From: Cenococcum geophilum 1.58
Lineage: Eukaryota; Ascomycota; Dothideomycetes; Gloniales; Gloniaceae
Reading direction: 5' to 3'
Length of the DNA stretch: 64,000 bases
Assembly (NCBI GenBank): GCA_001692895.1
Contig: KV748180.1
Location: 1,048,195-1,112,194 of the forward strand
The position numbers and the translations under genes were made by a program. A model generated the notes under the pieces. The model was not told the origin of the DNA and did no database searches. It saw nothing but the letters and a program-made list of their open reading frames with translations. Shown here piece by piece: positions 7,468-33,373 of this stretch. The first letter of the stretch is position 1, and each line of letters opens with the position of its first letter.

Positions 7468-10385
7468 TATTTACTACTAAGGTTACAGTATTAACAAAGT
7501 TAAATAATATACCACTAAAAGCACTAGCCACGACGCCGTTAACGGCAGTAACTACTTTAAGATTAGGTAATAACACTAGTATAGTAGATACTAACTTATA
7601 ACTAGTTATAGTTAGATAGTTATAGGAAATAGTTAATTAATTAATAGACAATAATAAGATACTTAAAGAAAGAATTAATAGAATCGGAGCAGCTAAGGTT
7701 AAGCTACTATTAATTAAGCGATTCTTAGGGGAGAAGTTAAAACTTAATGGATTTCTTACGTAAATATACTTTAAGGTTATATAGGAGGGAATAAAGCTAG
7801 CAATATCTATAGACTAAGTAGCCTATGCAGGATTGTTCCTAATAGGGAGGGTACTTAAGTAATTTAAACCCTATCTTATAGAGGCATAAGAATATAGTAT
7901 AGCAACTTCTAATTAAAAAGTATAATATATATTTGCTAGCTAAAATAGGTTTGCGGAATAATTAACGCAGATATTTAGAGACCTAAAAGTAACTACTATA
8001 GTAAAATAAAAGCTTTAAAACCTAGTATAACAAACCTTAGCAATTAAGTATATAACGCAGTTTTAAATATTAGCTATATAGGTTAAATAGAATAATAAGG
8101 CGCTTATAGTATAGTATAAATAAGGACTTAAAGCAAAAGTCTAGAACGTAATTATCCTAATAGAAGATATAGAAACCCTATAAGATCTAATTAATTAAGT
8201 AATTAAAATTAATAATAGAATCTACTAGAGGGAATAGACTAAGAAAGGTTAGAATAGAGTTCTATAGTTATATAAGGCGTAAAGTACGCAATAATAAAGT
8301 TAAAGTTAAAAACTATAGTATAGTGTAGAACTAATAGACCTAAGTAGTATTAAAGAATCTAGAAGATAGAATAAGAAACTATAAAAACCTAGAAGTTAAG
8401 GATTAAGTAATTATAAGACTGGGGGGTAGAGGCTAAACTAGGGATCTTAGTAGCAGAAAATATTTAGGCGGACTCTATAGCAAGAAAAATAGTTTAAAGA
8501 AGGAGCTTATATAAATTATAGAAAATAAGGTTATTTTTATTAAAGACTATAAAAGTAGTTAAAGTTACTATATAGTAAAAGAAATAAAACTAGTAGATAA
8601 TATATACGTATAGAGGGATAATAATATGCTATAAGGAATAAAGGAATGTTCGATTAAAAGTTTTACGTTTTATTATAATAACGCATACCAAATTTATAAG
8701 GACGCTAAGTATAGCGTAAGCTATTAGCTATAGGAGCTAAAATTATTAAAGTTTAAAGGAATCAATAAACTATCTCATAGATTAGATATTAAGGACGATA
8801 AATTTAATATAGGCGAAATATTTAGCACTAATAAGGCAATAAAGGCAGCTTACTAGGAGTATATAAACTTTAGAGAAGTTGTAATAAAAGTAGAGACTAA
8901 GACTACTATAAAATGGGGGTTGGTAATAGAAATTATAATACTATGAAATATAGCATCCATCGCTTTATAAGAAGGAAGGAGAAACATTTAAGAAAAAGGA
9001 TTAAGTAAGTAGATAACTGCTAGTGCTAGCTTACTACATAATAAAGGCAAAAGGCCACAGGCTTAAGATTCTTAAGAAGAGATAAGATATGCTTAAGGAC
9101 CTATAATAGACGACAACCGATAGAGCAGAGTAACGGCTTAGTTTAGTAATATATAAATAAGCTTAAGACGAAGTTTCCTAAAGGCATAAGATTCTTAAAA
9201 CGAGATAAGTAAGATTTAAAATTCTTAAGATAAGATAAGAATACTATAGAAGCCTAGTTAGACTAAGGCTAGAGCTAGGCTTAAAAAAAGCAAGCTTAGG
9301 ATTAAGAGTTCTATAGGACTAAGATTTTAATATATAAATAAGGACTATTAAGAAAATTAACACTAAGATTAAGAAGTAGGAAAATTTTAAGGATCTACTT
9401 ATAAGGCAAAAAACAAAAGAAACTATAGAGGAATTTAGATAAAGAATCCTTATATAGTAAGAATAGAAACTAAACTAGAGATCTAGTATACTAGGTCGTA
9501 CTAGGGATAGAGTACCTATATAAAGAATAACTAATAGGCCTAAGATAGGCACGCTAAGAGCAAAATAGCTTACTAAACTAAAATAAGAAGAGGATCTAAA
9601 AATCCCTACTAAATTTAAAGAATAATATATAAAGGGCTATTATAATATAGTAATAAGAAGATACTTCCTTATAGATAAGCCGTATATACTCTAATAGCTA
9701 TACTAAAAGTAGTATAGGCAGCAATATAATAATAAGTGGGAAGATTTTTATATATAGTTAGATAAGCGAGTTATCTAGGACCACCCTATTATAGAAAAAG
9801 CTATAAGTTATATTAAGGGAGCCTTAATTATAACGTTAAAGGATCTAGAGGAATAATTAGAGGACTAAAAAAGCAAAAGGCATATCTTAGTACCCGCGAA
9901 TAAAGTTATAATATTTAGATTAATATAATAGAGGTTTAAACTTAAGGATAAAGACGAGTTAAGAATTAACCTAAAGCACCTAGTATATTATACGCTATTA
10001 TAGATTATATACGTAGATAATATATACAATATATATAAAAATAAAAAATAAAAAAATTAGAAGTACCCTACATCGGGAAAATATGGTACCCTTTCAATGG
10101 CCTTAATAGCTGGTGGTTGACGCAATTGGCGCGCAGTTAAGGTCATTTGGCAACTTAACCGACTAGCCTATATCGTGTTTTTTTGACACGCAGCCTGCGC
10201 GCAGCCTACGTATAACCTACGCGTAACCTACCAGCAATCTACGCATTTGGTAACTATAATTATATTTACCTCTTTTATACTAATAGCATATTTTAAATAA
10301 ATAAAAGCTANTTTAAAGCTATTTATAAGGCTAGCAAAATAAATATTATTATTTTAGATAATTTAATATAATATAGCGATGGTTC

Positions 10386-10650
10386 TCTTCTACCTATCTA
10401 CCTATTAACTTACTTACCTACCTATATTGCCTACCTATCTACATTGCCTACCTATCTGCATCGCCTACCTATTTATATCTACTTGCCTGTCTATATCTAC
10501 TTACCTATCTATATCTACTTACCTGTCTATATCTACCTACCTATCTATATCTGCTTGCCTGTCTACATTTACTTATCTATCTATATCTGCCTACCTATCT
10601 ATATCTACCTACCCGTTAGTATCTCCCTATTTATGCCTACCTATCTATGC
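10386..10650. repeat. 18-bp tandem array (CTATCTATATCTACTTAC type)
   Basis: Imperfect 18-bp units such as CTATCTATATCTACTTAC and CTGTCTATATCTACCTAC run head to tail through about 10,470-10,620, with shorter CTACCTAT units on either side. The open frames here are a by-product of the repeat. Confidence 0.85.
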
Positions 10651-10686
10651 TACCTTAATTTAATTAATCGATTGAATCGTTTATAG

Positions 10687-11170
10687 TGTTCGCTGGCTAG
10701 TCGTTGTTGTCTGGCTCTGGTAATAGTCGTCTGGTTCTAGCGATAGTCGTCTAACTTTGGAGACGGTCGTCTGGTTTTAGCGACGGTCGTCTAGTTCTAG
10801 CGACGGTCGTCTGGCTCTGGCGACAGTCGTCTGGTTTTGGCGACAGTCGTCTAACTCTAGAGACGGTCGTCTGGTTTTGGCGACGGTCGTCTGGTTCTGG
10901 TAACGGTCGTCTAGTTCTAGTAACGGTCGTCTGGTTCTGGCGACGGTCGTCTAGTTCTAGCGACAGTTGTCTGGCTCTGGCGATAGTCGTCTGGCTCTAA
11001 CGACGGTCGTCTGGTTCTGGCGACGGTCGTCTGGCTCTGGCGACGATCGTCTGGTTCTGGTAACCGGTCGTCTGGTTCTGGGTAACGGTCGTCTGGTTCT
11101 GGTAACGGTCGTCTAGTTCTGGCGACGGTCGTCTAGTTCTAGCGATAGTTATCTAGTTCTAGCAACGGTC
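10687..11170. repeat. 20-bp tandem array (GTCGTCTGGTTCTGGCGACG type)
   Basis: About 24 units of 20 bp, three per 60 bases, vary at a few sites (GGCGACGG, AGCGATAG, GGTAACGG). The same unit appears as a four-copy array at 31,545-31,625 in member 2. Confidence 0.9.
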
Positions 11171-11295
11171 CTCTGCTGGCTGCCGTTCTAGTGCCTCCTA
11201 GGTAGGGAGGATGTAAGGAAGGAAGGGAAGGGTAAAAATAAGGCGCTATATAGGCAGAGACACGTGTAGACGCTATCGGGAATATAAGCGGGGAC

Positions 11296-11805
11296 CCGAT
11301 GCAGAGCTTCGTGTAGAGCTCCGTACGCAGAGCTTTACGTAGAGCTTCGCGCAGAGCCTTGTGCAGAGCCTCTGTACGTAGAGCTTCGTATAGAGCTTCG
11401 TGTAGAGCTTCGTGTAGAGCCTCCGTATGCAGAGCTTCGCGCAGAGCCTCGGTGCAGAGCTTCGTGTAGAGCCTCCGTACGCAGAGCTTCGCGCAGAGCC
11501 TCGTGCAGAGCTTCGTGCAGAGCTTCGTGCAGAGCCTCCGTACGCAGAGCCTCGCGCAGAGCCTCGTGCAGAGCCTCTGTACGTAGAGCTTCGTGCAGAG
11601 CTTCGTGCAGAGCTTCGTGCAGAGCTTCGTGCAGAGCTTCGTGCAGAGCTTCGTGCAGAGCTTCGTGCAGAGCTTCGTGCAGAGCTTCGTGCAGAGCTTC
11701 ATGCAGAGCCTCTATGCGCAGAGCTTCGTGCAGAGCCTCTGTACGCAGAGCTTCGTGTAGAGCTTCGTGTAGAGCCTCATGCAGAGCCTCGTGCAGAGCC
11801 TCTAA
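11296..11805. repeat. 12-bp tandem array (AGAGCTTCGTGC type)
   Basis: About 40 units of 12 bp, with interspersed 14-15 bp variants (AGAGCCTCCGTACGC), are nearly identical between 11,585 and 11,705. Because 12 is divisible by 3, both strands remain open here (repeat peptides of the AELR and KLCT type). They are not credible genes. Confidence 0.92.
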
Positions 11806-11929
11806 GTAATAAGACTATATAAGATTGTATAAGATTATATTAGATAGTATATAATAGTTAAATATATAGCATATAACTTTACCTTAATTGCATATTAAGA
11901 AATATACAGTTACCTTTTAAAGTTGCTAA

Positions 11930-12165
11930 GTAGGTTAACTGCGTATTATTTAACTTTTAAATATATTAAGTTAGTTAATTGCGTGTTAATTACGTATTAA
12001 GTTAGTTAAATTGCGTGTTAAGTTAGTTAATTGCGTATTAAGTTGGTTAAATTACGTATTAAGTTAGTTAATTGCGTGTTAAGTTGGTTAAATTGCGTAT
12101 TAAGTTAGTTAAATGCGTGTTAAGTTAGTTAATTGCGTGTCAAGTTAGTTAAATTGCATGTCAAT
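11930..12165. repeat. 20-bp AT-rich tandem array (TTAAGTTAGTTAATTGCGTG type)
   Basis: About eleven units of 19-21 bp alternate GCGTGTTAAG and GCGTATTAAG endings. The array lies just inside the right terminal repeat of member 1. Confidence 0.85.
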
Positions 12166-15100
12166 TACGCGAAACGCAAAAATTAAAGTCTACTTAAATC
12201 TTATCCTGCGAATATTTTCCCGATGAATAAGGATATATTAGGCGCTAGAAGAGCGGTAGTATAGGAATGCTAAGTATATATATAGATAGCATCTAATAGA
12301 AGTTTAGGAGTTAGGAGACTTAATACTTTAACTAAAAAAATTCCTTATAGAAAAATACTTAGATGGATAATAGTAGTAGAAATGTCTAGAGAATATATAT
12401 CTATAGTATATAGAGAATAAAAAGTAAACTAGGTATTAGCTAAAGAATAAGCTAAGTATAATAGGATTAAGTAGCTAATAGTTAGGAAAAGTAGAGGCCT
12501 ATAAAACTAAAGGAAACTAGTAGTAGAGCCTTAAACCCCTAAAGGAATTTAAGAATAATACCTAAATTTATAAATTAATTGGTAAAATTAACAGTTTAAA
12601 GCGCTAATAAATAGTGGAGTAATAAAAAACTATATTTTACTAGTAGCAGTTAAGAGAATAGGATTGCCTTATAGATAGAAGGAGTAATTTTACCTATTAG
12701 TTATAGTTTTAGGAGATCTAATAACCTATAGAGGAGGGATTATTAATCTTAAAATAAGACCTATTTAAATAACTATTAAAGGAAAATAAATTAAGATATC
12801 TTTTAATATCCTACTATTAGGACGGGGTAAGGTAGTATTAGATATACCTTAGTTATAGGAGTATAATCTAAAGATTAATTAGGTTACAGGTTAAGTTAAT
12901 ATTAAAGATACTTAACGCTATAAAATATAATAATAAACTAAAATAGTATAATACTAAGTTAGAGTAATATATAAAGAAACTAAGTAAGGCTTAAGTTATA
13001 TACTAAAAAGATACTATAAGTATAGTAAGAAACTATTAAGTCTAGAAAAAAAAAAGCTAGTAGATTATATAGTATAGGACTATAAAATAGAGTTAGAACT
13101 AGAAATAAGTTTAAGGTTTTTTCTAACCTATAAGCTTACTTAAGAAGAATTAAAAGCACTTAAAGAGTTCGTCTAAGAGAACTTATAAAAGGGATATATT
13201 AGACTATTATAATTATTAGTAGAATATCCAGTACTATTCGTACTAAAGAAAAATAGAAAACTTAGGCTATATATTAACTATAGATAGTTAAATAGTATTA
13301 CTTAGAAGGATAGGTATCCTTTACCCTTAATTAGCAAAATCTAAGATAGGATAGGTAATGCGTAAATCTTTATAAAGATAGATCTAAGATAGGTATACCA
13401 TTAGATTAGAATTAAGGAAGGACTATATAAACTATTAGTTATATAATTTAGGTTAATAAATATACTAGCGATATTTTAAAAGAGAATTAATAGTATATTA
13501 GGAAAATACCTTAATAAGTTTATTATGGCATACCTTAATAATATTATTATCTACTTAATAACTAAGAAAGAGTATAGGGAATACATTAAATAGGTCTTAA
13601 GGAGACTATAAAAAGAACAGATACTAGTAGTAATTAAAAAAATATAAGTTTTTTACTAAGACCGATTTCGTTAGATTTATTATTAAACTAGGTTATATTA
13701 GTATGGACCTAAAGAAGATTAAAGCTATAGTAAGTTAGTAAGAACTAGAAAACGTAACGCAGTTAAGGTTATTTTTAGGGTTTTGCAACTACTATAAAAG
13801 GTTTATAGCATAATAGTTAAAGAATATTAAACTATTTACTAGGCTAATAAAGAAAGAAGAACTATAAACATAGGGAAATAAGTAGAAGAAGCTATTTAAG
13901 GAACTTAAGAAGTTATTTACCTAAAAGCTAGTCCTTAAGATCTATTAACTAGGACTAGATACGGTTATAAAAACAGACTTATTAGACTTTATACTAGGAG
14001 TATATTTACTATAAAAGTATAAGAATATATAGTACCTAGTAGCGTACTATAGTTAGAAGATAATACTACTAGAACTAAACTATAACATCTATAATAAGGA
14101 GTTATTAGGTATAGTTATAGTATTTAAGGAATAAAGAGCATTCTTATAAGGCGTAGAAAAACTATTTATAGTTAAAATAGATTATAAAAACCTAATGGGG
14201 TTCCTAATAATAAAAGAACTTAACTAAAGATAAGTTAGATAGGTAGAGATGCTTAAAAAATACTATTTTAAGATTTAGTATACTAAAGGAACTAAGAATA
14301 TAAAAATTAACGTACTTAGTAGAAAAGCCAAATTATAAAATAATGAAAAACTATTAGGAGTAATACTACGTAAAGATAAGGATAGATTAATTAGATATAA
14401 TTACCCTAAGCTAGTAGCAACTTAAGAGAATAATAAATTAAGAAGAGTCTATAAGATACCGGAAAGCTTTTAGGTATAAAGAATTCTAGAAATATAGCTA
14501 GAAAATCTATAGATGGATATATATAAAAACTAAGAAGCAAAGTATATTCTAAGAAGTATTATAAAGTATTTTATAGAAGATTTCTATAGGGGAATAACTT
14601 AAGGATATAACGGGGTAATAGGCTTAGTGTTAAGACTTTAGAAAGAGTATATTATTAATAGAATATAGGGCATCGCTAAAAAGGTAATAAAAGAGTATCT
14701 AAATTGTTAGAGGAATAAACTAATAAGGTATAAGCTATATAGAGGGCTATAACCTATTAAAATACTAAAGAGACTATGGGAAGTTATATTATGGGACTTT
14801 ATTATTAAGTTATTAAGGTTAAGATACCCTATTACTAAATAGGAGTACGACGTAATCCTTATAATAGTAGATAAGTTAACTAAATAGGGCTACTTTATAG
14901 CATATATAGAAGAAATCTTAGTAGAAGACGTCGCTAAAATCTATATTAAGGAAGTATTTATAAAATACAAAGCACTAAGTAAAATTATATCGGATAAAGA
15001 TCTAAGATTTATAATAGTATTCTAGGAGGTATTTTTAGCGGAATAAGGGGTTTACGCAGTAATATTAATAGCATATTACCTACAGATAGATAGTTTAAAT

Positions 15101-16556
15101 AGAAAGATTAAATTAGATGCTTGAATAGTATCTAAGATATTATATTAATTACGCATAAAATAATTAGGTATTATTATTACTAGTTATATAGTTTATATAT
15201 AATACAATACCGCAGGAAAAAATAGGTATATTACTATTTAAGGTAAATTACGGATATAAGCTAAGAATATTATTATTACTATAATAAGTAAAGAAAATAA
15301 GTAGTATAGCTAAGGAAAGGATAAAGATATTAATAAATCTTTATATAGACCTTATGGAATTAGTAAAGACAGTATAAAAAAAAAAGTACTATAACGCTAA
15401 GAGATCTAAGGGACTAGATTTTAAGAAGGGGGATAAAGTATAGCTACTATACAAAAATTTCAAGAGTCGACAACTAAGTAAGAAGTTGGACTATATTAGG
15501 CTAGGACCTTTTAAAATTATATAGAGGATTTTACCGGTTATATTTAAGTTAAACCTACTAGCTAAAATAAAAATCTACCCTATATAGTATATTATAATAC
15601 TAGAACTAGTATATAGGAATATTAAGCTATTAATCTATAAAGCAGATACGTAGGGAGGGTAAAAAAAAGATAAATAGTAAGTTTTATAGATTATTAGTTA
15701 TAAGGACGTTAATAATAAAATATAGTATAAGGTTAAGTGGATAGGCTTTAATAAGACTACCTAGAAGCTACTATAGAACTTAAGAAATGCTATAGAAAAG
15801 ATACGGGAATATTAGAAGAAAAAGGGTTAGGTAATATTAAGAAGGAGCTAAAAATAAAGAAATTAGTTAAAGGTAATAGACAAGCTACATTATCTAAGGG
15901 ATCCACTACTAGCATATTTTATTTCCACCTTATCTTAATTAGAATCCTTTTTAGCCTCCTTAGCCTTAAGCTTAAAAAGACCTTATTTAATAAGACGTAA
16001 CTTTTTTAAGCGTACCTTTTTATAAACCTTTACTAAATGGCTTAGATAAGTATAAGTATTTAGTTAAGCTTTTAGAGCCTAAGACGCCTTATTAAAACAA
16101 TTTTAAACTTTAGTAAGGGCCTTAGCTAGTTTACTCTTTAGTCTTTTGGCTGCTACTAATATATAAAACCCTAAGATAAATTAAATAAGGAACTAGACGG
16201 TTATAAAGATTAATAAAATACATATATTTAGCGTTAGAGGCGGATTAAATATTATAGGATAATTATATATTCGCTTATGTATACTTAGTATATAAAGAAG
16301 GTTAGCAACTAGACGGAGCTATAATTATAATATATACTAACTTCTTCTTCGTATAATAAGAATAGGACGGTATAACTTTACTAAAAGAAATAATAAACGT
16401 TACTAGCTAATTATAATAATTAGATATAGAGGATCTAATAGAAAGTATTAGAAATAATAAAGGTTATTAAATTAAAGACGGGAATACTATACCTTTAATA
16501 AATAACTTAGAGATAGGAGATATCTTTAAAGATAAAGATAAAGAGGAGGGGGATGG

Positions 16557-16937
16557 TGTTATGGACCTTATATTAGTAGTAGTAGCACTATTAATGAGAG
16601 ATATAAATGGACTAGTAGTAGAAGTATAGGAGGTATTAGAACTAGTTATATTATAAGTTTAGAATATAGGAACGTAGGAATATAGGAATACAGCGTACCA
16701 ACGTACTAATATACTAACGTACTTAGTACATTTCTTAGGCGTAGTATTATATATTTAAAGGACTACAGTCCCTACCTAAATAGTTCTCTTTTTTATAGTA
16801 AATCTTAGAATATAATTAGAGTTAATCTGTTAGGCAACTACTCCACCAGTTATTATTACGTTATTAACTTCTTATTTACCTATATACCCAGTCCATTAAT
16901 AAGTTTACTATAGTTCTTTCTATAAGGCTTCGTTACA
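16557..16937 (+). repeat. 3' LTR of Gyp-A copy 2
   Basis: This 381-bp LTR has edges TGTTATGGACC and GCTTCGTTACA and is preceded by a purine-rich tract. It is followed by the TSD CTATA. Confidence 0.88.
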
Positions 16938-17040
16938 CTATATACTATAAATATATATTTTTTAGGCATTTCTACTACTATTATCTGTTTAGGTATTTTT
17001 CTATAAGGAATCTTTTTAGTTAAAGTATTAAGTTATTTAA
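16938..17040 (-). mobile_element. Gyp-A internal fragment, right part (host of copy 2)
   Basis: This stretch continues the relic of 6956-7061 after the copy 2 insertion. It parallels about 3,150-3,240 of copy 1, then loses similarity at about 17,030-17,045. Confidence 0.7.
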
Positions 17041-17480
17041 CTCCTAGAGCCCGCGAAGCCCTACTATACGCGCCTACGTTACTGTAGGTGGAAAGATTAT
17101 CTAAAATCCGTTCCTCTTAATGGCTAAGTATAAAGGCAATAGTAGAGAGCCATTGTAGTGCGTACAGCGCTATTATAGTAACTCTATAATATTAAGCCTA
17201 TAACGCGTATAAGTATCGCCCTTAATAATACCAGGAGTCCTACTACCCCTACTTAAGGCTCCTATTATACCATTTAGGGGGGTTATTAAGGGAAACTAGA
17301 TATAAAAACTACCTATTATATAACTACCTAGCTTATAGCTAGGCCTAAAACTAGCCTTATTTAGCTAGTTAATATAGATACGCCCTAGGCATACAATAGA
17401 ACACCCTTAGGCTTATACTAGCTCTAAGACTATAGGAATAAAGTAAGGGTATAGGGAACCTCCTTTTATAAGAACTTTTT
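17041..17480. other. Unclassified RIP-mutated stretch
   Basis: About 440 bp lie between the Gyp-A relic and the first clear Gyp-B RNase H sequence. It is somewhat less AT-rich at its left edge (CGCGAAGCCC). I could not match it to another copy in the window. It may be upstream Gyp-B pol, or a separate short insertion. Confidence 0.4.
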
Positions 17481-18226
17481 AGGGTTAATATATTACAGAT
17501 TTATACGAAACTTATTAAAGCCCTAAGACCCCTATAACATCTATAATAAAGAAATGCTAGATATTATCTTTAGCTTTTAGCATTAGCGTATATAGCTAAA
17601 AGGGACCCCTAAGCCTATTTAGGTAGTTTTAGATTATAAGGCCCTAGAATACTTTATAATAATTAAGGCCCTTATAGCGCGGTAAGTGTACTAGGTAGAT
17701 ACCCTATCCTAGTTCCACTTCCTAATTATATATAGGCTAGGTGCTACTAACTATATAGATGCTCTTATAACGCGTAAACAAGACCTAAATAATTAAATGG
17801 CCGTAAAGATCTTATTATAGACCTAGACATTACTATAACTAAAGTATCTTAACCCTTAAATATAGGAAGAACTAAGTACTAAACCTTTAAGCGCTAAGAT
17901 ATATCCTATTAACCCTATAGAATTTAACCTTATTAATAAACTACTATAAGTGAACTATACGAGCCCTTCTCTATAGGAGTACTGTAAAAAGGTAAAGAAT
18001 ATTACTAGCCTATAGTCTCTTAGAAATGGACTACTTAAGCACTAGAAATAGCTAGTAGTAGTAAAGAAATAGAACTTATAAACCTAGCTTATTGCTAAAG
18101 TACCTAAATCTCTACGGCCTACCCTAGAAAAAATAAAACCTATAAGATTATTAGTAACCATTACTACTAGCCCAGAATAGTTATAGATATTAACCGTTAT
18201 ATACAGAACTACAATAACTACTATAG
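17481..18226 (+). mobile_element. Gyp-B remnant, part 1: RNase H and integrase start
   Basis: Plus-strand Ty3/gypsy sequence carries a recognisable RNase H domain (about 17,500-17,800) followed by the integrase N-terminal region up to 18,226. The part ends with TATAG, the TSD of the TRIM multimer, and continues at 20,221 and again at 54,610. The 5' half of the element (5' LTR, gag, most of RT) is not seen upstream. Degenerate, many breaks. Confidence 0.75.
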
Positions 18227-18370
18227 TGTTATAACTTTGCGCTACTATATAATAGATATAGGCTAGAGAGCTTATAAGGTATTCTAACTAGCAGCATATT
18301 TAGTTATAAAACACTACTACTACCTTTTTAGAGGTTTATATAGCTAAGTGGATTAGGCTTAGGTATAATA
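18227..18370 (+). repeat. TRIM LTR 1
   Basis: This 144-bp copy begins TGTTATAACTTTGCG and ends TTAGGTATAATA. It is directly preceded by the TSD TATAG. Confidence 0.78.
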
Positions 18371-18607
18371 ATATATCTTATAACTACCTAAAGGTTAGTA
18401 TTTAATCTAGTATAGGGTTAAGCATTTATAAGTATAAAATAGCCTAAGTAACTATACTCTTTATAGTTAGTACGGAGTATTATATATACTTACTAGAGGT
18501 TACTTTATAAAAAGCTTAATATACTAGCTAGGGTGCTAGCGGACGCCTCGCGATTAGCAGCTAGGGTACTATAAGTAGCTAAAGTGCTATATAGCTAAGA
18601 TCACTTA

Positions 18608-19557
18608 GAGGCCGTTCGGTTGCAAATCAGCTCTATATCATATTTGTTCAATCCGTGCGCCTTTTAGTGTCGTCCGTTTTGTAATTAGTGGCGGCTACTA
18701 CCGCGGCCCATTTGAATATGTAATTGAGTCGATCGTTCGGTAGCCTCCATATGAGGCTCCAGATTTGGCTTCGCATAATCCGTGATTGACGTCGGTGAGC
18801 GATTCGAGTGAGCCCCTCTCTGCCACCAGGCCTCTATCGCGACTCCCTACTTTGGTGTAGTAATGGAGCCTCCTCCTCGACCAACGCCCCCTCTGCGATT
18901 AACACTTGCTACACCTTCGCTTACCTCCCGTAGGAGCCGTAGCAGAGCTATAGCAACGCCCGCATCGCCCGCGACGCCCGCGACGCCCGTAGGGCACAGG
19001 AACGCGCGTATAAGATGGACAGGTGAGATGGAGGAGGCGATGTTAGAAGGCCTCGTTGAGGCCGTTAAGAAAGGATTTCGCGTAGATAGCTCTTATAAAT
19101 CTGACGGCTGGAGGATTGCTCTTAATCGTACGCTTGCTGTTGCCTAGCAGCCTGTTACTCTTAAGCAAATCAAGAGCAAGCACGATAACCAGATTATGAA
19201 GGTCAAGATAATAACATCAGATAAGGCTTGCAAATGCGATAGTAGTATCGCGGTTGGGGTGTGTGGAGTCGCCATATCACAAGAAGTTGTTACTTTGGCG
19301 CGTATATGAGAGCTCAAATTAATATGGAATATGGAACGGAGGCTCAAGGGCAGCATATTGAAACGGTGCCAAGAACCTCATTTTAACTACCGTATATAGT
19401 ATAGCTTGCAAATTTGACGCGCTTACCGATATGGAGGAGCTCCATATTCAAAAGTCGTCAGATTTACCGAACGACAGCCTCATATTCAGATTTGAGATCC
19501 ATATCGGTTAAATATGGAGCCTCCATATTGAATATGAAGTTGTAACCGAACGGCCTC
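18608..19557 (+). mobile_element. PIF/Harbinger-like element with Myb/SANT-like ORF only, TSD TTA
   Basis: A 950-bp element of normal base composition has terminal inverted repeats: GAGGCCGTTCGGTTGCAA at the left, and GAGGCCGTTCGGTTACAA from the reversed right end. It is flanked by TTA (18605-18607 and 19558-19560), the 3-bp duplication typical of PIF/Harbinger. Sub-terminal copies of ATATGGAG and its complement cluster at about 18,745-18,765 and 19,430-19,535. The only sizeable ORF (18863-19147) encodes a Myb/SANT-like DNA-binding domain. No DDE transposase is present, so it is non-autonomous. It sits in the first internal segment of the TRIM multimer. Confidence 0.85.
18863..19147 (+). CDS. 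Myb/SANT-like domain protein of the Harbinger-like element, shortened by a stop
   Basis: The 94-codon ORF starts at a good ATG with a proline/serine/threonine-rich N-terminus (residues 1-48). From residue 51 (RWTGEMEEAMLEGLV) it shows the tryptophan and acidic pattern of the Myb/SANT-like (Myb_DNA-bind_3 type) domain, with a second tryptophan in SDGWRIAL. The frame closes at a TAG directly followed by CAG, where a C-to-T change in CpA context (RIP-like) could have made the stop. The same frame continues with QPVTLKQIKSKHDN, which fits the rest of the domain, to about 19,309. PIF/Harbinger elements often encode such a Myb-like partner that helps the transposase bind the ends. Function here is inferred from fold and context. 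Confidence 0.7.
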   Translation: MEPPPRPTPPLRLTLATPSLTSRRSRSRAIATPASPATPATPVGHRNARIRWTGEMEEAMLEGLVEAVKKGFRVDSSYKSDGWRIALNRTLAVA

Positions 19558-19626
19558 TTAGCAAAAGGCTAGCTATAAGTCGCGATTTAGGCGCCTAAGG
19601 ATATACGCCCTAAGAGGGGGTATAGT

Positions 19627-19771
19627 TATTACGACTTTGCACTACTTATATAGGATATATAGGCTAAAGAGCTTATAAGGCATTTTACCTAGCAGCCTAT
19701 CTAGTTACAAGACACTATTACTACCTTTTTAGTAGTTTATATAGTTAAGTAGGTTGGGCTTAGGTATAATA
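19627..19771 (+). repeat. TRIM LTR 2
   Basis: This 145-bp copy (TATTACGACTTTGCAC to TTAGGTATAATA) follows a polypurine-like tract at about 19,610-19,621. Confidence 0.75.
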
Positions 19772-20070
19772 ATATATCTTATAACTACTTAGAGGTTAGT
19801 GTTTAATTTAGTATAGGGTTAAGTATTTATAAGTATTAGACAGCCTAAGTAACTATACTCTCTATAATTAGTATAGGGTATTATATATACTTACTAAAGG
19901 TTACCTTATAGAGTTTAATACGCTAGTTAAGGTACTAGTGGACGCCTTATATATAGCTAAGAGTGCTATAGGTAGCTAGAGTACTGCGTAGTTAAGACTA
20001 CCTAGCAAGAGGCTAGCTATAAGTTGTAATTTAAGCGCCTAAGGATATACGCCCTAAAAGGGGGTGTAGT

Positions 20071-20215
20071 TGTTATAATATTGCGCTACCTATATAACAG
20101 ATATAGGCTAGAGAGCTTATAAGGTATTCCAACCAGCAGCCTATCTAGTCGCGAGATACTACTACTGCCTTTTTAGTGGTTTATATAGTTAAGTGGATTA
20201 GGCTTAGGCATAATA
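20071..20215 (+). repeat. TRIM LTR 3
   Basis: This 145-bp copy (TGTTATAATATTGCGC to GGCATAATA) is followed by the TSD TATAG at 20216-20220. It is the least RIP-altered of the three by eye. Confidence 0.78.
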
Positions 20216-20220
20216 TATAG

Positions 20221-22636: not shown

Positions 22637-22721
22637 CTAGAGTAACTCTAAAAAGAAGGCTAATCTATACTCTAAAGTTAAGTTTTCTAGACTACTCGTA
22701 ATGTATACGCAATAGCGACTT

Positions 22722-22852: not shown

Positions 22853-25800
22853 CCTAACTTCTGCTAACTAATTAGGATTTTCCATCCCCGGGATAGAAAA
22901 TCGCTATTGGCTTGCTTAGTACTAGCGCTAATACTAAACTAAAGTCGAATCCGTTCGCTTAACCTACCCTACAGCCCGTAATTCAACTTAATTCGTATTA
23001 ATAAGCTGTAATAGTGCCGTATAGGGCTTACCCTTTATTATAGCGTCCGCAGGGTTAGTATCTCTATTAATTTACTTAACTTTAGTAATCTGTTTTTGTT
23101 TATAAGCTTAGCGAAAGCATATTATATTAATTATTAAGCGTTTCTCTTACGTAGTTCCTAGTTAGATAAGATAGTTATATAAAGACTTTAAATTAGTATA
23201 AAGAATAAATAGTAAGTTAACCTATAAGACCTTGTCTAGCGTAGATTTAATTATAGCGCCTATATTAAAACTATGCGCTATGCCATACAACTCTAAGGCT
23301 AATACACTCCTAGTGACTCTTTTGCACTTAATTAAGGACTAATAGACAATATTTGCCTTATTTAAGGCGTCTGCTAGTATAAATACGTAGCCAATTTATA
23401 AAGATAAGTCCTTATTGTTGGCGAAGGAAGCGTCTGTAAATACTAGGAGTTATAAGGTATTAACGTCTAGCTTAACGAACTTTAGGCCTCTATTTATATT
23501 CTTAATCTACCAGCTTAATCGCTTATTAAGACTCTTTATATTATCTTTAATTAGGTTAATTACCTAGGTAGTAAAGGATAGGTTAAATAAGGCCTCTAGC
23601 TAATAGATTAAGGCGATATAGGCTCCTTTAGCGCGTTAAGCGATATATTGGTCCTTTAGCGTAAGTAGGCCACGCGTAACTCCTCTAGAGCTAGTGCTGT
23701 TTATTAGCGTAGTATTAACCACACTAAGGTTTTTATACTAGCGCTTTTGCGTTAGCGTAATACTCCTATCTTATATTAATTAAATAAGTCCTCCGTTAAA
23801 CTTAATTGGTATATTAGCGGTTAATTACTCTTACTTCTTAGCTATAAATTTAGCCTTATATAGTTCGCTTTGTTTAGCTTTTATAAAGGTATTATCTATA
23901 AGAAACAGTATATTGTTAGTCTATAGGCCGATAATTCTAAAAGGCTTATTGCTGTAGAGTAAGTAAGGGTTATACGTGGACTGGTCTATTTGCAGCTAAT
24001 TAACGTAGTATAAATAGTAGGTCTTAAACTAGTAGTTTTTAGCTTTAGGTACTTCGTAAAGTGGCTTTATAACCTTTAGAACGGAGTCTATATTAATTCC
24101 TAATTATTTATTTAGCTTATATAGTGGTCGTATATAGAACTTGCGGTTTAGGTTTATAGTAGACTAGATATAGGCTTATAAGATGTCTTAGAGGTAGAGT
24201 TATATTTATGGTAGCATAGCAGCGATATAGAGAATTAGCCGCTAGCTAACCCGTTAAATTATTGGTGACTAAGTAAGGACTAGCTCTTTCTCTAAATTAT
24301 TATAGGCCTATATAATAAGTTGTAATTTCTTAAAGGCTCTATTGGTTCCCTTATTCTTAATCTTGTTAATAAACCATAAGTTAAAGAGTCTGACCCCCTT
24401 TAGTATATTGTGTAGCTTAATGATCTTAAAGACACCTTTCTTAAGTAGGCCTATAACCTCCTTTTATTGTAAAGCGCTGAATTAGGTATTATTATCGTTC
24501 TATAAGTAGATAGCGATATTAGCGATATCTATAATATTACCTATAAAAGCACCTATATCTATTATAGCGTCTATAGTAGCTGTGTCTGCAACGGCTGTAA
24601 GTAATAGGTATTTACGGAGGCGACCTCTGCCTCGCTTTGGCGGTAGCTGTAGTTTAGCTTTAGGTAATGATTGAGGTTTAGCTAGTAAAGGTACTAGTTT
24701 AGCTGATTTAATAGGCTCTTGTGGTTTAACTAGGTCTTATAGGTCTAGTAGGTAAGGTTTTATAACTGTAGAGCGGAAGGTTGTAGGCCTATTTGGTAGC
24801 TTTACGGTATAAGTCTTACTGTTAACGGTAAGTAGTGTATATGGCCTATCCTAATAACTACTCTAGCCAGTATTGCCTTCTCTCTAGACTAAGACAGGCG
24901 AACTAGGTAGGAGGCCGTAAATAGCATTAGTTTGTGGTCCGTTTTGTATATTAAGAGCGTTAGCAATTTATCGTTCAGCTTATAGCTTCTAAATTTCTAC
25001 TATTGCTTTCTTAATAGCCGCAGCTTGCTATGTAACTAAAGGTAATAGCGTATCCGATTTAACCATTTGGGGGTAGGCTTTGAAGACTAGGAGTATAGGG
25101 ACTAAGCCTTCTAGGCCAGCTGTGTTATTAATAGCTTTAAAGGCCATTTATAGGGCCATCTCCTTGCTAATTTTAGGGATTTTAGTTGTAATAATTTGGT
25201 AGGCTTGTTATAGCGGATTATAGTAGCGCTCTACTATTCTAATAGAATTGTGTAATTTAACTAGAACTAACTTTATGGTTACTCCTATAGTAGTAGCATA
25301 GTGCTTAAACTCCTTATTAATAAAGTTCTTTTTAGCGTCTGTGGTAATTAGGTTTAATAGTCCTAAGTAGCTATTAATCTAGCACATCTATAGAATGTCC
25401 TAAGTGTGCTTAGCGCTAATATCTCGTAGCTATCTACTAGCTTAAAATTAAGTTGCTTTGTCAACTACGTGTAGTAGGGGGGAGCTGCTAATATATATAA
25501 TATCAACGATAATATTATAATTGAAATTAACGTTGTCTTATAGGGTGAAGTGAAATCTACCTAGAGATCTGCTATACTTCTAGCAATAGTAGTAAAGTCT
25601 AGTTAGCTCTTTAATAGCGGATCTATTAGTATTATAGCCATAGCTAGCCTTATTAAAAAGCTTTTGTAGTCTATTAACTAATGGGTAACTAAATTAACGG
25701 TATAAACGTCGTAGTTCTATATTAGTTAAGTAGTAAGGGTTTATATTAAAAGACTTAACTAAATAGAACTATAAGGAGAAGCTCTATAAGAGAAATGGGT

Positions 25801-27439
25801 GGCTAAATTATCTAACTACTAGTACCCTTTTAGTGCGAGTGATAATAACGTCCTTTAGGTTATTGTATTTAATATAAAGTCTATCTATATCTGCTAAGTA
25901 AAGTAGAAAAGGGGTATTTGCTTTAACGATATAGAATTATACCTTGCCTATAGGGCTGTTAATGTCTATAGTTCTAATAGACGTAGATGCTCTAATTCCG
26001 AATTAGATAGTTACTTAACCCTTAGTTAACATGTTAAGACTTACGGACTTATCTACAGCCTATAGAGCTTAGAATTGGCCGTAGCTAGCTATAGACTTAC
26101 GCGAAGCACCTATATTAATCATGATTCCTATAAAGACCGTTAAGGTATATTATAACGCTGTGGTTATAGCCGTACTATAGGCAAATAGGTCGGTCTCCGT
26201 GTAAGGTTTTGTAGTAGACTCTATAATAAGTTCTAAAGCCGTAAGTAAGTATATACAAGCCTTATTGGCTAGCTCTACGCTTATAGAGGTTGCTTCCTCC
26301 GTAGTAAGTATTCTAAAGGTGGTAATATAGGCAGAACTATCATTAGGTTCTCCGGTATCGTTCCTAGAGTTATTAGCGTCTTTAGCGTCTTATATATAGG
26401 CTTTAAAGTCTAAATTATTATTTTTATCTTTTTCGCAAGCAGCGACGTATTACTTAAAGTGGTTATTAAAGTTACCCTTATTACGGCCCTTAATATTAGT
26501 AAAGCGTCTCTTATAATTATCTCTGGACCGATTACGCTCCTCCTCTATGTATTTCTATAAATGGCAGTCCTCCTTCTTATAGACGTAGCACTTGGCCTTT
26601 AGTCTGCCGTTAGTTTTATAGGGGCGATTGCTACTATAGCGGTTAGTGTTTTGGTCTCGATTCTGGTTATTTTAGTAGTAGTATTAATCCGTAAAAAAAG
26701 CTTAGTGAGACGATCTTATTAAGGCCTATAGGGGGTATTCTTTTTCCTACGTAATAATAGAGGATTATAGTTTACTAATTAACTAAGAGAGGTTTTTTAA
26801 AGGGTTGGAGATAGTAATATAGCATACTGGTACTCCCTAGTAAGTAGTAACTAGCTTATTTATAAGAATACAGTTTATATACAAGTCTAGGTATAGTCTA
26901 TAATGTTATTTTAGTAGCTTATCTATAAGCAGTTAGAAGTTCTAATAGATTAACTTATTAGGGTTCTCGTCTATAACTCCTTAGAGGGTTATACTGTTCC
27001 ACTCTATAAGGTTCTTGCGGTAGTATTCTAGCCCTTTAAAGAACTATTATATATGGTTATAGGCTTCTATAAAAGGTCTTAACTTAAGGTTACTATTATA
27101 GTAGTGGTCCTAAGCAAGCCCTTTTAGTATGCTAGGGAATGCTACTATATAGCCTTCTGGTAGCAAGCTAGATCTCTTATAGATATTATAGAAGATGGTT
27201 AACTTAAAGTTAAAGCTGTCACTAACTCTATTGTACTTTTGGTCGTCTATATAGATCTTTGTAATTATAGCCACCTCTTTGCTATATCTAGGCCCTTGCC
27301 TAGGTCCTTACTCCACACTAGGCATAACTAGTTTAGGTAGTATATATATAGGTAGCTGTTACGGCTGCTGTAGTTGCTGCGACTATAGCAATTGGTTAAT
27401 AAGAGTGTGGATTTAGTTATAATTGGAGGATTAAGGACC

Positions 27440-27545
27440 GGGAGGGGTAGCAGGGGTAGTAGGGGTAGTAATTGGAGTAGCTGGTGGTATAGCAATTGGA
27501 GTAGCTGGTGGTATAGTAATTGGAGTAGTTGGCGGTATAGCAGTT
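27440..27545 (-). repeat. 30-bp coding-type repeat in copia gag
   Basis: Three near-identical 30-bp units (ATTGGAGTAGCTGGTGGTAT) follow GGGGTAGTA units. The period is a multiple of 3, as in low-complexity gag segments. Confidence 0.65.
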
Positions 27546-28469
27546 AGAATAGCTGGTAGAAGAGCTAGTAATGCTTATATAGCTGGTAAGGGACTATAGA
27601 AAGGTATTAACGCCGGTAGAGCTATAGTAAGCTTATTTAAGGTTGAATTAAGTTAGTCTTATAAAGCTATAGTAATTATTAGCTTAATATTATTAAGGGC
27701 TAGACCAATCTCTTCGTCTGTCCATTCGTGAAATTCTTCTTTTTAAAGGAGGTTGAATAGTGCTTCTAAGATTAAATATCTATTATTATGCTTTCCGACA
27801 TATACTTCTCTCTTAAGTAGATGGATGCGTAACTTTACTCTTATATTAGTTCGCATACGTTTAAAATCCTTAGTAGTAAAGCCTTTAAATTCCTCCTTAA
27901 ATACTGTCTATAGTATATAGTCTGTGAAGTTCTCCTATATATGTACGTAGACCTTTATTACTACGTAGTTTCCTAGCTTATCTTTAGAAGCTATAGCAGC
28001 AGTAATTCTATTACTATGCTTCGATATCTTTTTTTACCACTCTATTATAGTGTAAAGTAGTATGCGTTTAGGTGGAGGTTGTAAAGGTTTAAGGTTTTAA
28101 GGTTTAAGGTTAAGGTTAAGGTTAAGGTTGAGGTTAAGGGTAGTATATACGTTCTCTATAGCCGTTGGGCCTATAAAGTGTTCTTAGTAAGATTACTATT
28201 CTCTTAGCAATCTGTTATATTAGCTGTAAAGCTAGTATAAATTCTCTTAAGCTTAAGGGAGGTTGTAATCTTCTCTAAGTAAAGATATAATTCTCTAGGC
28301 AATCTAACGCGTTAGTAGTTAAGTTAATATGTGGTCTTAAGCTTTAAGGGTAATATAGCTTTTTCCTTTAATAAAATAGATAAGAACTAGGCGATCGTAA
28401 AATATTTCTAGTACTACTTCTTAAGCGCTAGCTATTGCGTATTTCCTAATCTATACGTCTACTAATTAG

Positions 28470-28640
28470 TGTTAGTATAACTCTCTTTATCAACGTGCAT
28501 AAATATTACTTATAGTAGTACGTATGCGGTGTTAAAGTTTGTAGTTAATTGTTATCTAGAAGAAAGGGGTTGCTCCAAGGTCAGACAGTTAGTCTCGCTT
28601 CGTAGTCCCGTGACTACGTCACGTGATTAATGTTCCGACA
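28470..28640 (-). repeat. Right (5') LTR of the copia element
   Basis: This 171-bp LTR begins TGTTAGTATAAC and ends GTTCCGACA, followed by the TSD TTAAA. Confidence 0.9.
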
Positions 28641-28645
28641 TTAAA

Positions 28646-29535
28646 CAATAACTAAATTAGATTACTACTGTTAACTTTTACCTAAAGACCTCCCTATAGA
28701 AGCCCCCTAGGCCTACTAAACCTATATATACTAAGCTACTAACGCCTATTACCTTAAATACCACTAGAGCTAATATCGACCTTTTTATTCCAACCTTTCC
28801 GTAAAAACTCTTAGATAGAAAGCGCGAGCTACTTTAGAAACTAGGACGCTGCTATAAATGCCGTTAAGAAGGCTATTATTATAATAACCTAAACTACCTA
28901 ATAGCTAGGTTTAGTAACCGCTGCCTAATACCTAACCTAATACCCTAAATACTAAATATATCGCTACGTGTTATTACTATATAAGACGAAGACGTAGTAA
29001 TAATAGTAGAATTGGATATAGAAGTGGAAAACGCTAAGTCCTAGCCCTAAGTTGTGGGTTAGGACGCCCTAATAATAGAGGGATCTATATATTAGCCTAC
29101 TTAATAGATAACTTAGTAAAAATAAACGGACGGAAATAGATAGTTTTACCTATAATAGAAACTACTGCTAAAAAATAATATAAAAGCCGTTTTATAATTA
29201 ACTGCAAAGCTATTAATAAATTTATAGATACCTAATTTGTACGTATTTATAACCTACCTACCTTACCCCTTACTAAAGCCCGCGCCCTATAACTCGCTAA
29301 CGGTAGTTATACTATATAGAAGATTACCTATATAGTATAACTCTACTTAGATATAAACGGGCACTAGGAAGGGCTCTAGCCCTATATTATACCACTTACT
29401 AACTACCCTATTATTCTTAGAATAAGCTAGCTTAAATAATATAACCCCACTATTAACTAGGAAAAAAAAAGCAACCTTTAACTCTAAATACTGTAGAGAG
29501 ACTTACCTAGAACATAGCCTAGCCGCCTCTATTTA
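28646..29535 (+). mobile_element. Gyp-C piece: gag end and protease region
   Basis: Gyp-C resumes after the copia insertion. A zinc-knuckle region is recognisable at about 28,848-28,892, followed by an acidic stretch and a protease-like region (about 29,130-29,420). The piece ends with the 14-bp TSD of the LINE derivative. Confidence 0.75.
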
Positions 29536-30794
29536 TTTATTTATTTTTATATCCGTTGTATTATACTACGTACAATACTACGTATGCAGCCTTAGGCTAT
29601 AGCGCTATAGTTCTATATACATGAATCCTTTCTAAGCATCTTAATATATACTCCTAGTAGTTTATAAACCTCTAAACTAGAAGTTTATAGTTCCTTAGTA
29701 AACTAAGTTACTGCAACTACTAGGGAATGAGAAAACGGTAGGAAAAACTATAAGAAATCCTAACACCTGTCCCTATCCTTTTGCAATTTATTTCTGTCCT
29801 TTTGCTCTCTATAGTCCTTTTAAGAGCCTAGTAGGAGTTGCCTCCTTCTAGAGTCCTATTTGTTTTATTTTTCTATAGAACCTTCTACGCTAATACTACG
29901 TACTATGTACTAGTTTCGCTGCTTGAAGAGTCTCGCAGTCTTTACTATTAGCAAAGCGGTTTTCCTTACAATTAATGCAAAAAGGGGTAGTATGCTTGCA
30001 AGGCCTGCCTGATATTAAACAGGTAGGACAGCAGTAGTCTTTAGATAAATATACAGCCGCACAGAATCTACAGGCTCTAGTAGAGCATCTATCTCCTATA
30101 TGGCCAAATTTTTGGCAGCTAGTGCACTGCGTAGTAGAAGAGACTTCGAGGTATTTTACTACCTTAGTAGCTGTACCTGCAATTAATATCTCTTTTTGCT
30201 TAAGGATTTCTTGTCTTTTTTCCTTGTTCTCTATAGTAAAAACTATAAAGCCAAATCTGGTTTATGGATCGTGTCTTTTTACGCTAGATAAAATCCATCT
30301 AGGTAGTCCTTGTATCCGTATAGGATTAAAGGTCTCAATTTCTTCTTTTAGAAGCTTAGAGCCTCCCTCTCCTAGAAAAGGTAGGGTAGGAACTCTATGG
30401 GCTATAATTTAAACCCAGGGTTCTAGTTTTTATTCTCTTTAAAAAGTAAAGCAGTTATGCCAGATATCCTTATATTTAATTAGGAAATCTGCATTATACT
30501 CTTCTGTAGTTATAAGGAAAATATTTTGTTTTCCTTTAGTTCTAGCTATAGACGCTAGTACTGGCTTTTCTACTTACAGTTTTAATGCAAATAGTTAATT
30601 AACTTTGTTCCGTATAGAGAAGGTATTTAAAGATTGGTTTTTTTCGTCTGCGTCAGGAAAACGGGAGGGTGGTAGGGGCTAGCCAGGGGCTAGCCCGGGG
30701 CTGGCCCGGGGTCATTTTAGCTGGATCCGCTAATCTGCTTATATATACTTATTTATAATAGCCCGGGGCTAGCCCGGGGCCATATTAGCAACAT

Positions 30795-30868
30795 TAACAC
30801 ATTTTATACGTTTTATACGTTTTATACATTTTATACGTTTTATACATTTTATACGTTTTATACATTTT
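30795..30868. repeat. 10-bp array (TTTTATACGT)
   Basis: About seven units of TTTTATACGT or TTTTATACAT run head to tail. A short AAAATTC array follows at 30,908-30,945. Confidence 0.85.
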
Positions 30869-31053
30869 ATATAATATTTCCTATAGCTGCAATATGTATA
30901 ATTATAATAAAATTCAAAATTCAAAATTCAAAATTCAAAAATTTAAAATTAATAGTAGCTATAAGGGATATCTCTCGCAGAGTCTCCAAATCGTCAATTG
31001 GCGGCGTTCCCGATGATCCGCTGGCCATGTACTGATTTCCTAACTAGGCCTAG

Positions 31054-31203
31054 TGCCTGTCCTGCCTGTCCTGCCTGTCCTACCTGTCCTACCTGTCCTA
31101 CCTGTTCCTACCTGTCCTACCTGTCCTACCTGTCCTACCTGTCCTACCTGTCCTACCTGTCCTACCTGTCCTACCTGTCCTACCTGTCCTACCTGTCCTA
31201 ACC
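31054..31203. repeat. 9-bp array (TGTCCTACC)
   Basis: About 16 units of 9 bp, nearly perfect from 31,090 to 31,200, produce long artefactual frames (repeats of PVL or CPT). Confidence 0.92.
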
Positions 31204-31544
31204 GTCTGACCGTCCTACTTGTTCGTGCCTACCTGTCTGTGCCTGCCGGTCGTGCCTACTTGTCTATGCTACCTGTCTGTATCTGTAATTCGGGGGAGAG
31301 GTCGGCCCGATCGAAGGCTCTGCTTGATTTGATTTGCGATTGGATTATATTGATTCGAATCGTTCTCCTCTGGGCGTTCGCTGGCTGTACGTTTGAACAG
31401 TGGGGTCGTCTGGGGTGCCCTCCCTAAGAGGCCTTGATTCGATTTGATTTGGTAATAGGATGATATCGAGGCTCTAGTTCGATTCGATCGATCGATTGAA
31501 TTGATCGTGGTGTTTGCTGGCTGGTCGTTTAAACGATTATCGTC

Positions 31545-31625
31545 TGGCTCTGGCGACGGTCGTCTTGGTTCTGGCGACGGTCGTCTGGTTCTGGCGACGG
31601 TCGTCTGGTTCTGGTCACAGTCCTC
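31545..31625. repeat. 20-bp array shared with member 1
   Basis: About four units of GGCGACGGTCGTCTGGTTCT match the 24-unit array at 10,687-11,170. Confidence 0.88.
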
Positions 31626-31933
31626 TGGCTACCGTTCTGGTGCCTCCCTAAGTAGGGAGGATGTAAGGAGGAAGGGTAAAGGTGGCATTTAGGTGTACAA
31701 GGGGTATGCAAAGGCACGTGTAGAGGCTGTCGGGAATATAGCGGGGACCCGATGGTACTTCGGACGATTTAGATGATAAGGAAATCAAAGTCCTGCTAGG
31801 AGCCTACTAGGAAGCCTGCTAGGAGCCTGCCCGGAGGCCTTTAGGATTTTAATACCCTAATAGCAATAAATATAATAATAGTAATAATATTTATTTTATA
31901 GCTATAAGCTAGCATAGTGCTAGCGTATAGCTC

Positions 31934-32144
31934 TAGGGCTTAGCTAATATGGCTAAAAGCTAGCCCTAGGCTAGGGGGGGTTAGCTAATATAGCTAAAAG
32001 CTAGCCCTAGGCTAGGGGGGGTTAGCTAATATAGCTAAAAGCTAGCCCTAGGCTAGGGGGGGTCAGCTAATATGGCTAAAAGCTGGCCCCGGGCCAGGGG
32101 GGGTTAGCTAATATGGCGGAAAGCTAGCCCCGGGCCCTAAAAAC
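31934..32144. repeat. 41-bp array (TTAGCTAATATAGCTAAAAG...)
   Basis: Five units of 41 bp each contain the palindrome-rich AGCTAGCCCTAGGCTAGGGG. Related GGGGCTAGCCCGGGGC blocks stand near the other end at 30,675-30,780, so the two sub-terminal regions resemble each other. Confidence 0.88.
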
Positions 32145-33373
32145 ACTTTTAGCGAAACCAAATTTCCTACGCCACTTCCCGTTTTCCTGATGTGTAATTA
32201 GGACTAGCTTCCTTTCTTATAGCTGCTTTTTCTTACTTCTAGTAGAAGTAGAACTCCTACTAGAAGGAGAAGGGGTAGAAGATGGTGGTGGTGATAGTAA
32301 AAAGGGTAGGGAGGACGAAGAAGGGAGGCCCTTCTTTAGCCTCTCTGCGTAAGTTTTCTTAGTAGGAGCTACCTCCTTACGGAGAGCCCTTACTTCTTCT
32401 ACTAGTCCTTTTAGGACATTGTTTGCCTTTTCTTTTCCTTATATAAAGGGATTTTCTCCTACTAGAATACTCCGTATATAGTCCTTTAGCTGTTTAACTT
32501 GTTCTTTTTTTTCTTTTTCTTCTTCTCTTAGCCCTTTATAAGCCTGAGTTAGGCTTTCTAAAGCTTTTTATAGGTGTTGATTTAGAGAGAGAGAAGAGGG
32601 GAGTATACTAGCCGTAATAGGCCTGAAATCTATCCCCTCTCTTATTTAGCATTGGTTTTGGTATTAATTTTTTCCTTCTTTCTTTTCTTTTTCTTTTTTG
32701 GAAAGTGATTAAGAGTAGCTTCTTTTTTTTCCTATATAGATTAGAGGGTTAAATAGGCAAGGGGAAGATTGAAGAGAGGAGGTAGAGGTAGAGGTAGATA
32801 ATATATTATTAATTATCTCTATAGTTTTGCTTTTGAATGGCTTTTTTTTTTAAACTTATAAGTCTTTACCATTTTAAAGCTTATAGAAGCTTATAGGGGG
32901 GTTTCCTAGTTTTTATAGTAGATAATAACCTTCTTAGGTCTCTTATCTCCTAGTCCTAGAGGTAAAAAACTAGGCAAAAAGCCTTGCTAGTTTTTACTAT
33001 CCTTTTACGCCCTTTCTCCTTACTAATCCTACTAGAAGATTTCTAGGGAGACTAGGCTTAAAGGTAGTAGAAAAACTAGCTAAAAAAAGACTAGTATCGT
33101 TTTGGTATTGGTAGTAGTGGTAGTAGTAGTTTTGGTGTTCCTATCCATGCCTCGCTTACAAGCTAGGACCACCCCTAAGAAGAATTTTCTGTTGGGGGAA
33201 AGGGGGTAAAACGACAAATAAATCCACCTCTAGCTCGCTAGGCAGGAGGAATTGGGTCTTGAAAGTCGGAAAATCGATTGTTTTTGATGGTAAGATAGGT
33301 ATGCGTAAGTTTTGAAGTGTGGCGCTACCTTTTAGTAAGGTTGCATGTGTGGTGAATCTGCCGCCTCTATTTA

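Follow-up and report, generated by a model that had tools for sequence, protein, structure and literature searches.

PlavakaB transposons, of the Plavaka lineage within the CMCT clade, have 5'-CATCA..TGATG-3' termini and target site duplications (TSDs) of 2 or 3 bp, while the CMCT lineages overall mostly have 5'-CA..TG-3' termini and TSDs of 2-5 bp, and Plavaka has been reported from Agaricomycotina (PMC12730594, December 2025; this and the other papers cited here are drawn on in excerpt). CACTA/EnSpm elements have TSDs that papers give as 3 bp, and those of Chenopodium have terminal inverted repeats (TIRs), closely spaced direct and inverted subterminal repeats and, in some copies, a tandem satellite array near the 3' end (PMC8978399). 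Smaller elements with comparable traits are a bacterial miniature inverted-repeat transposable element (MITE) of Porphyromonas gingivalis that has a minisatellite inside a miniature TIR element (PMC4596501), and the non-autonomous MITEs of the fungus Mycosphaerella graminicola, whose groups share TIR and TSD, not internal sequence, and of which nine of 13 families have 2-bp TSDs, eight of the nine being TA (PMC4522978). Here we describe two array-rich elements, e1 (10071-12225, 2,155 bp) and e2 (30651-32192, 1,542 bp), in a 64,000-nucleotide stretch of Cenococcum geophilum 1.58 (assembly GCA_001692895.1, contig KV748180.1, positions 1,048,195 to 1,112,194), hereafter the window, whose own numbering and forward strand are used unless noted. 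We consider it probable that both are DNA transposons of the non-autonomous, cut-and-paste kind, with PlavakaB-like (CACTA/CMCT-type) ends, and that they were moved in trans. PlavakaB is the closest match found; the resemblance lies in the ends and the duplication and does not establish membership.

Both elements are clean insertions when set against sister retroelement copies with empty sites. The first lies in a Gypsy-like copy altered by repeat-induced point mutation (RIP) and is missing from that copy's sisters at 44.5 and 3.3 kb; the second lies in a repeat copy associated with a long interspersed nuclear element (LINE) and is missing from the sister near 49.1 kb. These empty sites, which an earlier note made from the DNA letters had reported for both elements, fix the element boundaries to within the duplication. 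At the e2 site the sister reads GTCTGTAAC and the filled site GTCTG-[e2]-TGTAATT, a perfect 2-bp duplication of TG (30649-30650 and 32193-32194). At the e1 site the 44.5-kb sister reads ACCTTATAAGG and the filled site ACCCTA-[e1]-AATAAGG, with two extra bases, TA on the left (10069-10070) and its mismatched duplicate AA on the right (12226-12227); here the 44.5-kb sister carries TA and the 3.3-kb sister AA, as read by eye. The 2-bp duplication formerly proposed for both sites is thus exact in e2 and has one mismatch in e1.

The terminal repeats had been given as C[A/G]TC[A/G]GGAAAA. This string is read by all four ends and, as CRTCRGGAAAA, has exactly four matches in the 64 kb and none elsewhere in it (0.06 expected; none of 100 shuffles reached four), but the TIRs exceed these 11 bp. 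The left TIR of e1, CATCGGGAAAATAT (10071-10084), is complementary at 14 of 14 positions to the right TIR (12212-12225, reverse strand), and the left TIR of e2, CGTCAGGAAAACGGGA (30651-30666), is complementary at 15 of 16 positions to CATCAGGAAAACGGGA (32177-32192, reverse strand), the common form in e2 being C[G/A]TCAGGAAAACGGGA. The TIR core alone, with two mismatches allowed, gave 10 matches where 8.42 were expected; because this is chance level, internal TIR-like words are no evidence by themselves. By its count, a further TTCCCGATG word inside e2 (31005-31015) is likewise no more than chance would give. The two elements have slightly different TIRs and each end pairs best with its own partner, which makes it probable that the elements represent two subfamilies.

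Alignment and motif scans also bore out the claim that the two elements have a core and the motif CGGGGACCCGATG in common, and the fixed order of modules that had been noticed was found in both: a CCTACCTRTC-type array, a spacer, a 20-bp array of GTCGTCTGGTTCTGGCGACG and a core of about 125 bp stopping at CGGGGACCCGATG. In e1 these are an 18-bp array (10411-10613), the spacer (10667-10705), the 20-bp array (10726-11175, 22.4 copies by Tandem Repeats Finder) and the core (11176-11301, with CGGGGACCCGATG at 11289-11301). Their counterparts in e2 are 9/14-bp CCTACCTGTC arrays (31056-31280), the spacer (31491-31529, with a partial second copy of 26 bp at 31373-31398), the 20-bp array (31540-31630, 3.7 copies; a 20-bp row spans 31540-31614 and a 41-bp row runs to 31630) and the core (31631-31754, with CGGGGACCCGATG at 31742-31754). 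The longest stretch common to both has 171 of 219 positions identical (E 4e-41). Scores were compared with those of 500 randomised pairs from a first-order Markov model, which keeps dinucleotide make-up and not tandem structure: the core scored 136 (null maximum 26) and the spacer 43 (null maximum 27). Inverted, the spacer still exceeded its controls (26 against 22), presumably owing to its partly palindromic nature. The first arrays, 18-bp in e1 and 9/14-bp in e2, scored 44 against a null maximum of 40, a modest margin that is weak alone, as the randomised pairs have no tandem structure, and that is further backed by a 64% match over 156 columns (E 0.001) and a 22-bp edge match of 91% (E 0.003). 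These arrays are probably related.

The repeats outside this module differ between the elements. Specific to e1 are a 12-bp array (11300-11799, about 40 copies) and, in the tandem-repeat listing, a 20/41-bp array near the right end (11985-12157); e2 has left subterminal GGGGCTAGCC repeats with a GCCATATTAGC motif (30674-30789), a specific 9-bp TTTTATACG array (30802-30871) and a 41-bp array (31936-32135; 4.8 copies at 31936-32130 by Tandem Repeats Finder). More arrays are present than the earlier note had named, and the unit at 30674-30711 is 11 bp, not 10 bp, by Tandem Repeats Finder. Its statement that the elements otherwise carry different arrays, with unit sequence not conserved, stands for the outer parts; it does not stand for the middle arrays, which lie within one shared module, for the first array, probably related, or for the spacer, which is common too. 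The left flanks of e1 and e2 have no significant similarity (48 of 500 randomised pairs were as good), and a similarity of their right parts (score 34; one of 500 pairs as good) was discounted as an AT-rich stretch. Allowing three mismatches, CGGGGACCCGATG has three matches against 1.73 expected, which is no evidence alone; the two exact matches both lie in homologous sequence. A tRNA-Asn called by ARAGORN at 10976-11076 is spurious, being wholly within the 20-bp array. A scan against Rfam gave no match at gathering scores.

In e2 the left GGGGCTAGCC/GCCATATTAGC repeats are matched in inverted orientation by the right-end 41-bp array. With 300 dinucleotide-preserving shuffles at each of three lengths, none of the 300 was as good at any length; direct-orientation scores were 24 to 25 against 35, and GGGCTAGCCC is itself palindromic. 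Because they form an inverted subterminal pair, the outermost repeats of e2 look like transposon anatomy and not like passengers. The earlier view of the arrays as cargo is doubtful on this account, and also as the middle arrays are one shared module. The subterminal repeats of CACTA elements bind transposition proteins, and by analogy those of e2 would do the same.

No transposase had been seen in the elements, and the domain scans agree. The 12 frames of e1 and e2, with stops read as X, gave no Pfam match above cut-off; weak matches such as Collagen, RelB-like and DUF445 were below it and came from repetitive translations. No DNA-transposase domain was found in six frames each of 17.0-29.9, 33.1-39.75, 47.76-57.7 and 12.2-16.9 kb; the Pfam scans also took in eight open reading frames. 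Searches for further copies covered viral, bacterial and archaeal collections, which have little bearing on fungi: an 18-base core word was found at no place in viral contigs, a 20-base core word had no match in genome contigs, and the e2 core had none in plasmids or phages. A 16-base motif had four places in viral contigs, which we read as chance, the loci being of 60-69% GC and the 120 bases around them having no likeness to the core by eye. Among the matches listed in literature searches, one on minisatellite-bearing TIR elements in fungi gave no matching fungal family, returning the bacterial precedent and general transposon papers; one on Plavaka gave no minisatellite-bearing elements of such kind by title, and one with sequence words of the ends gave no transposon paper by title.

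It had been said that no described superfamily was recognisable from the ends, but the PlavakaB termini and TSD in the excerpts of PMC12730594 resemble those of e1 and e2. The 3' end of e2 is exactly TGATG, while its 5' end, CGTCA, and both ends of e1, CATCG..CGATG, are each one base off. PlavakaA, with TGT..ACA termini, does not fit, as all four ends read CRTC inward, and neither does the CAC..GTG terminus of CACTA/EnSpm, the termini here being CAT or CGT; the KDZ groups (Kyakuja with 7-bp and Zisupton with 8-bp TSDs) are ruled out by the 2-bp duplication (PMC12730594). The Chenopodium CACTA/EnSpm elements resemble ours in their TIRs and, for e2 only, in their subterminal repeats, and some copies also in their arrays, but e1 and e2 lack the CAC terminus and carry minisatellites of 9-41 bp, several per element. 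The likeness to the Porphyromonas gingivalis MITE lies in the minisatellite within a miniature TIR element. That to the Mycosphaerella graminicola MITEs, which are likewise non-autonomous fungal elements, lies in the 2-bp duplication; e1 and e2 share an internal module and their TIRs differ slightly. The CACTA/EnSpm TSD is 2-3 bp, a range that the 2-bp duplication fits at its lower limit. Other groups are separated by their target sites or ends. Tc1/mariner elements target TA and are ruled out by the TG duplication of e2, and hAT and Mutator elements, with TSDs of 5-11 bp, by the 2-bp duplication; Helitrons have TC..CTRR ends, no TIR and no TSD, and are ruled out by the TIRs and duplication of e1 and e2.

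Several observations weigh against an assignment to PlavakaB-like transposons moved in trans. Three of the four ends differ from CATCA by one base, and because a random 5-mer does that well or better about 1.6% of the time, the match of ends is suggestive only. The duplication of e1 is imperfect (TA/AA), and its subterminal inverted-repeat test was negative (33, 194 and 63 of 300 shuffles as good at the three lengths), so that subterminal repeats of CACTA/EnSpm type at both ends are found in e2 alone. Neither a transposase nor another copy was seen in the Pfam scans of the window or in the viral, bacterial and archaeal collections. Plavaka is reported from Agaricomycotina in the excerpts of PMC12730594, and e1 and e2, array-rich and lacking a transposase, lie in DNA whose RIP pattern suggests a filamentous ascomycete. 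The same mismatches at three ends, the differing TIRs of the two elements and the lack of a transposase in the translated regions would also agree with membership in another TIR superfamily, perhaps one not yet described, that makes 2-bp duplications, the likeness to PlavakaB being coincidence or convergence. We regard this as a possible but clearly less likely reading, given the exact TGATG of e2 and that CA..TG ends with 2-bp TSDs are within the published CMCT range (PMC12730594).

The inner structure raises a further alternative, namely that each element is a composite in which an older element with the 3' end CGGGGACCCGATG was embedded, with its repeats, between the outer TIRs of two families, as in Pack-type capture. 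The two elements cease to be homologous at CCCGATG, a heptamer that also closes the right TIR of e1 itself; it may be the relic of an inner end or a putative binding site that was kept. The outer flanks have no convincing similarity. However, TIR-like words are expected by chance at two mismatches, no 5' counterpart to the inner end came to light, and fast-changing outer arrays would likewise hide homology. We hold such a composite to be unlikely, although it is partly compatible with PlavakaB-like transposons moved in trans and the two are not exclusive. Short tandem arrays are known in Helentrons, and these together with a hairpin-like sequence in the core could point to a Helitron-type or other replicative element without a true TSD. 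The TIRs at both ends, the 2-bp duplication of e2, ends in GATG and not CTRR, and the weak, unconvincing folding of the cores (z -1.16 and -1.78) make this very improbable. Eight arrays account for 62% of e1 and 34% of e2, as might follow from minisatellites that expanded in place with no transposition, but sharp empty sites, matching TIRs and the presence of the same module at two unrelated sites leave this virtually no probability, the empty sites effectively refuting it.

For non-autonomous PlavakaB-like transposons the mechanism is ordinary and the array load unusual; the family and the transposase are what we infer. A transposase encoded elsewhere in the genome would bind the TIRs and, at least in e2, the repeated subterminal motifs, excise the element and reinsert it with a 2-bp target duplication. 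Slippage or gap repair during transposition may lengthen the arrays, which RIP-like transitions may then erode. Genome-wide confirmation would probably add a RIP-active fungus to the range of Plavaka-like transposons and illustrate how minisatellite arrays are carried and spread by elements that have no genes; in other respects e1 and e2 are ordinary non-autonomous transposons. A bolder proposal, which we consider quite doubtful, is that the conserved non-coding minisatellite module (array, spacer, 20-bp array and core ending in TIR-like CCCGATG) serves as a functional part that two TIR subfamilies with differing ends have acquired, its repeats being protein-binding platforms through which gene-less elements recruit transposase. 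On this view DNA transposons would have a cis module, built of arrays, that can be swapped between them.

The window is AT-rich (34.5% GC), and most of its first 58 kb or so bears a RIP-type dinucleotide signature. Of the 58 one-kb bins in this part, 49 have a substrate index, (CpA+TpG)/(ApC+GpT), of 0.2-0.6, and the six bins of 58-64 kb have values of 1.07-1.37. The elements sit in retroelement copies far more RIP-mutated than the inserts, with an index of 0.69 in e1 and 0.90 in e2, against 0.30 and 0.16 in the 2-kb flanks of e1, 0.47 and 0.44 in those of e2, and 1.21 in the gene block, with the reservation that array composition itself shapes these indices. As the inserts retain more RIP substrate than their hosts, they probably arrived after most of the host decay. 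Against this, the product index TA/AT is 1.71 in e1 and 1.39 in e2 versus 0.80 in the gene block, and the inserts are not free of RIP-like bias.

Transitions account for 144 of the 154 mismatches to the unit that the eight arrays contain (124 of 128 in e1, 20 of 26 in e2). In the four e1 arrays C-to-T and G-to-A changes affect 30 of 127 CpA/TpG sites, 28 of 218 CpG sites and 11 of 301 other C or G (Fisher p 2e-9 and 1e-4), and in those of e2 they affect 2 of 33, 5 of 40 and 2 of 187, respectively (p 0.11 and 0.002); these p-values are indicative, because the analysis treats the consensus as the ancestral state and the units depend on one another. Changes in the 18-bp and right-hand arrays of e1 are mainly A>G and T>C, the reverse direction, and 21 T>C changes occur in the 12-bp array; this would be explained, though it is not proved, if the consensus were already the mutated state. 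Mismatches per array base are about 10% in e1 (128 in 1326) and 5% in e2 (26 in 523), and e1 is on this comparison probably the older. The repeats seem to record RIP-like decay and could help to order insertions among heavily mutated retroelements.

Self-comparison of the window places copies of the e1 host at about 1-5.5, 8-17 and 40-47 kb and those of the e2 host near 30-33 and 48-50 kb. The copy carrying e1 has RNase H-type reverse transcriptase domains above the Pfam cut-off (5e-14 and 2e-13) and a reverse transcriptase match slightly under it (26.5 bits against 29.6), and Gypsy is because of these matches a fair name for this host. The copy carrying e2 has no domain match itself; its LINE label rests on what adjoins the sister copy (48.2-49.9 kb), namely the LINE-type endonuclease and reverse transcriptase domains that follow it immediately, at about 50.0-52.4 kb. 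A third insert, GC-rich (54%) and of 257 bp (5476-5732), lies in a copy of the e1-host retroelement and is missing from two sister copies. It has the ends TGTAAGG..CCTTACA and AATCC on both flanks, a 5-bp duplication, and is of a different, MITE-like family from e1 and e2.

Elsewhere in the window, the RIP-mutated compartment ends within 57700-64000 and gives way to the gene block, which holds a fragment of a TauD-like dioxygenase (6e-14) and a kinase match below threshold. A second decayed retroelement, of long terminal repeat type, lies at 33950-35570; it contains reverse transcriptase and RNase H domains, and an integrase zinc-binding match in it is below threshold. The region 18222-20219 has local duplications spaced about 0.4 and 1.4 kb, with a sub-threshold Myb/SANT-like match at about 19 kb, and an imperfect TTAAGG hexamer array lies within the RIP-mutated region at 28084-28139.

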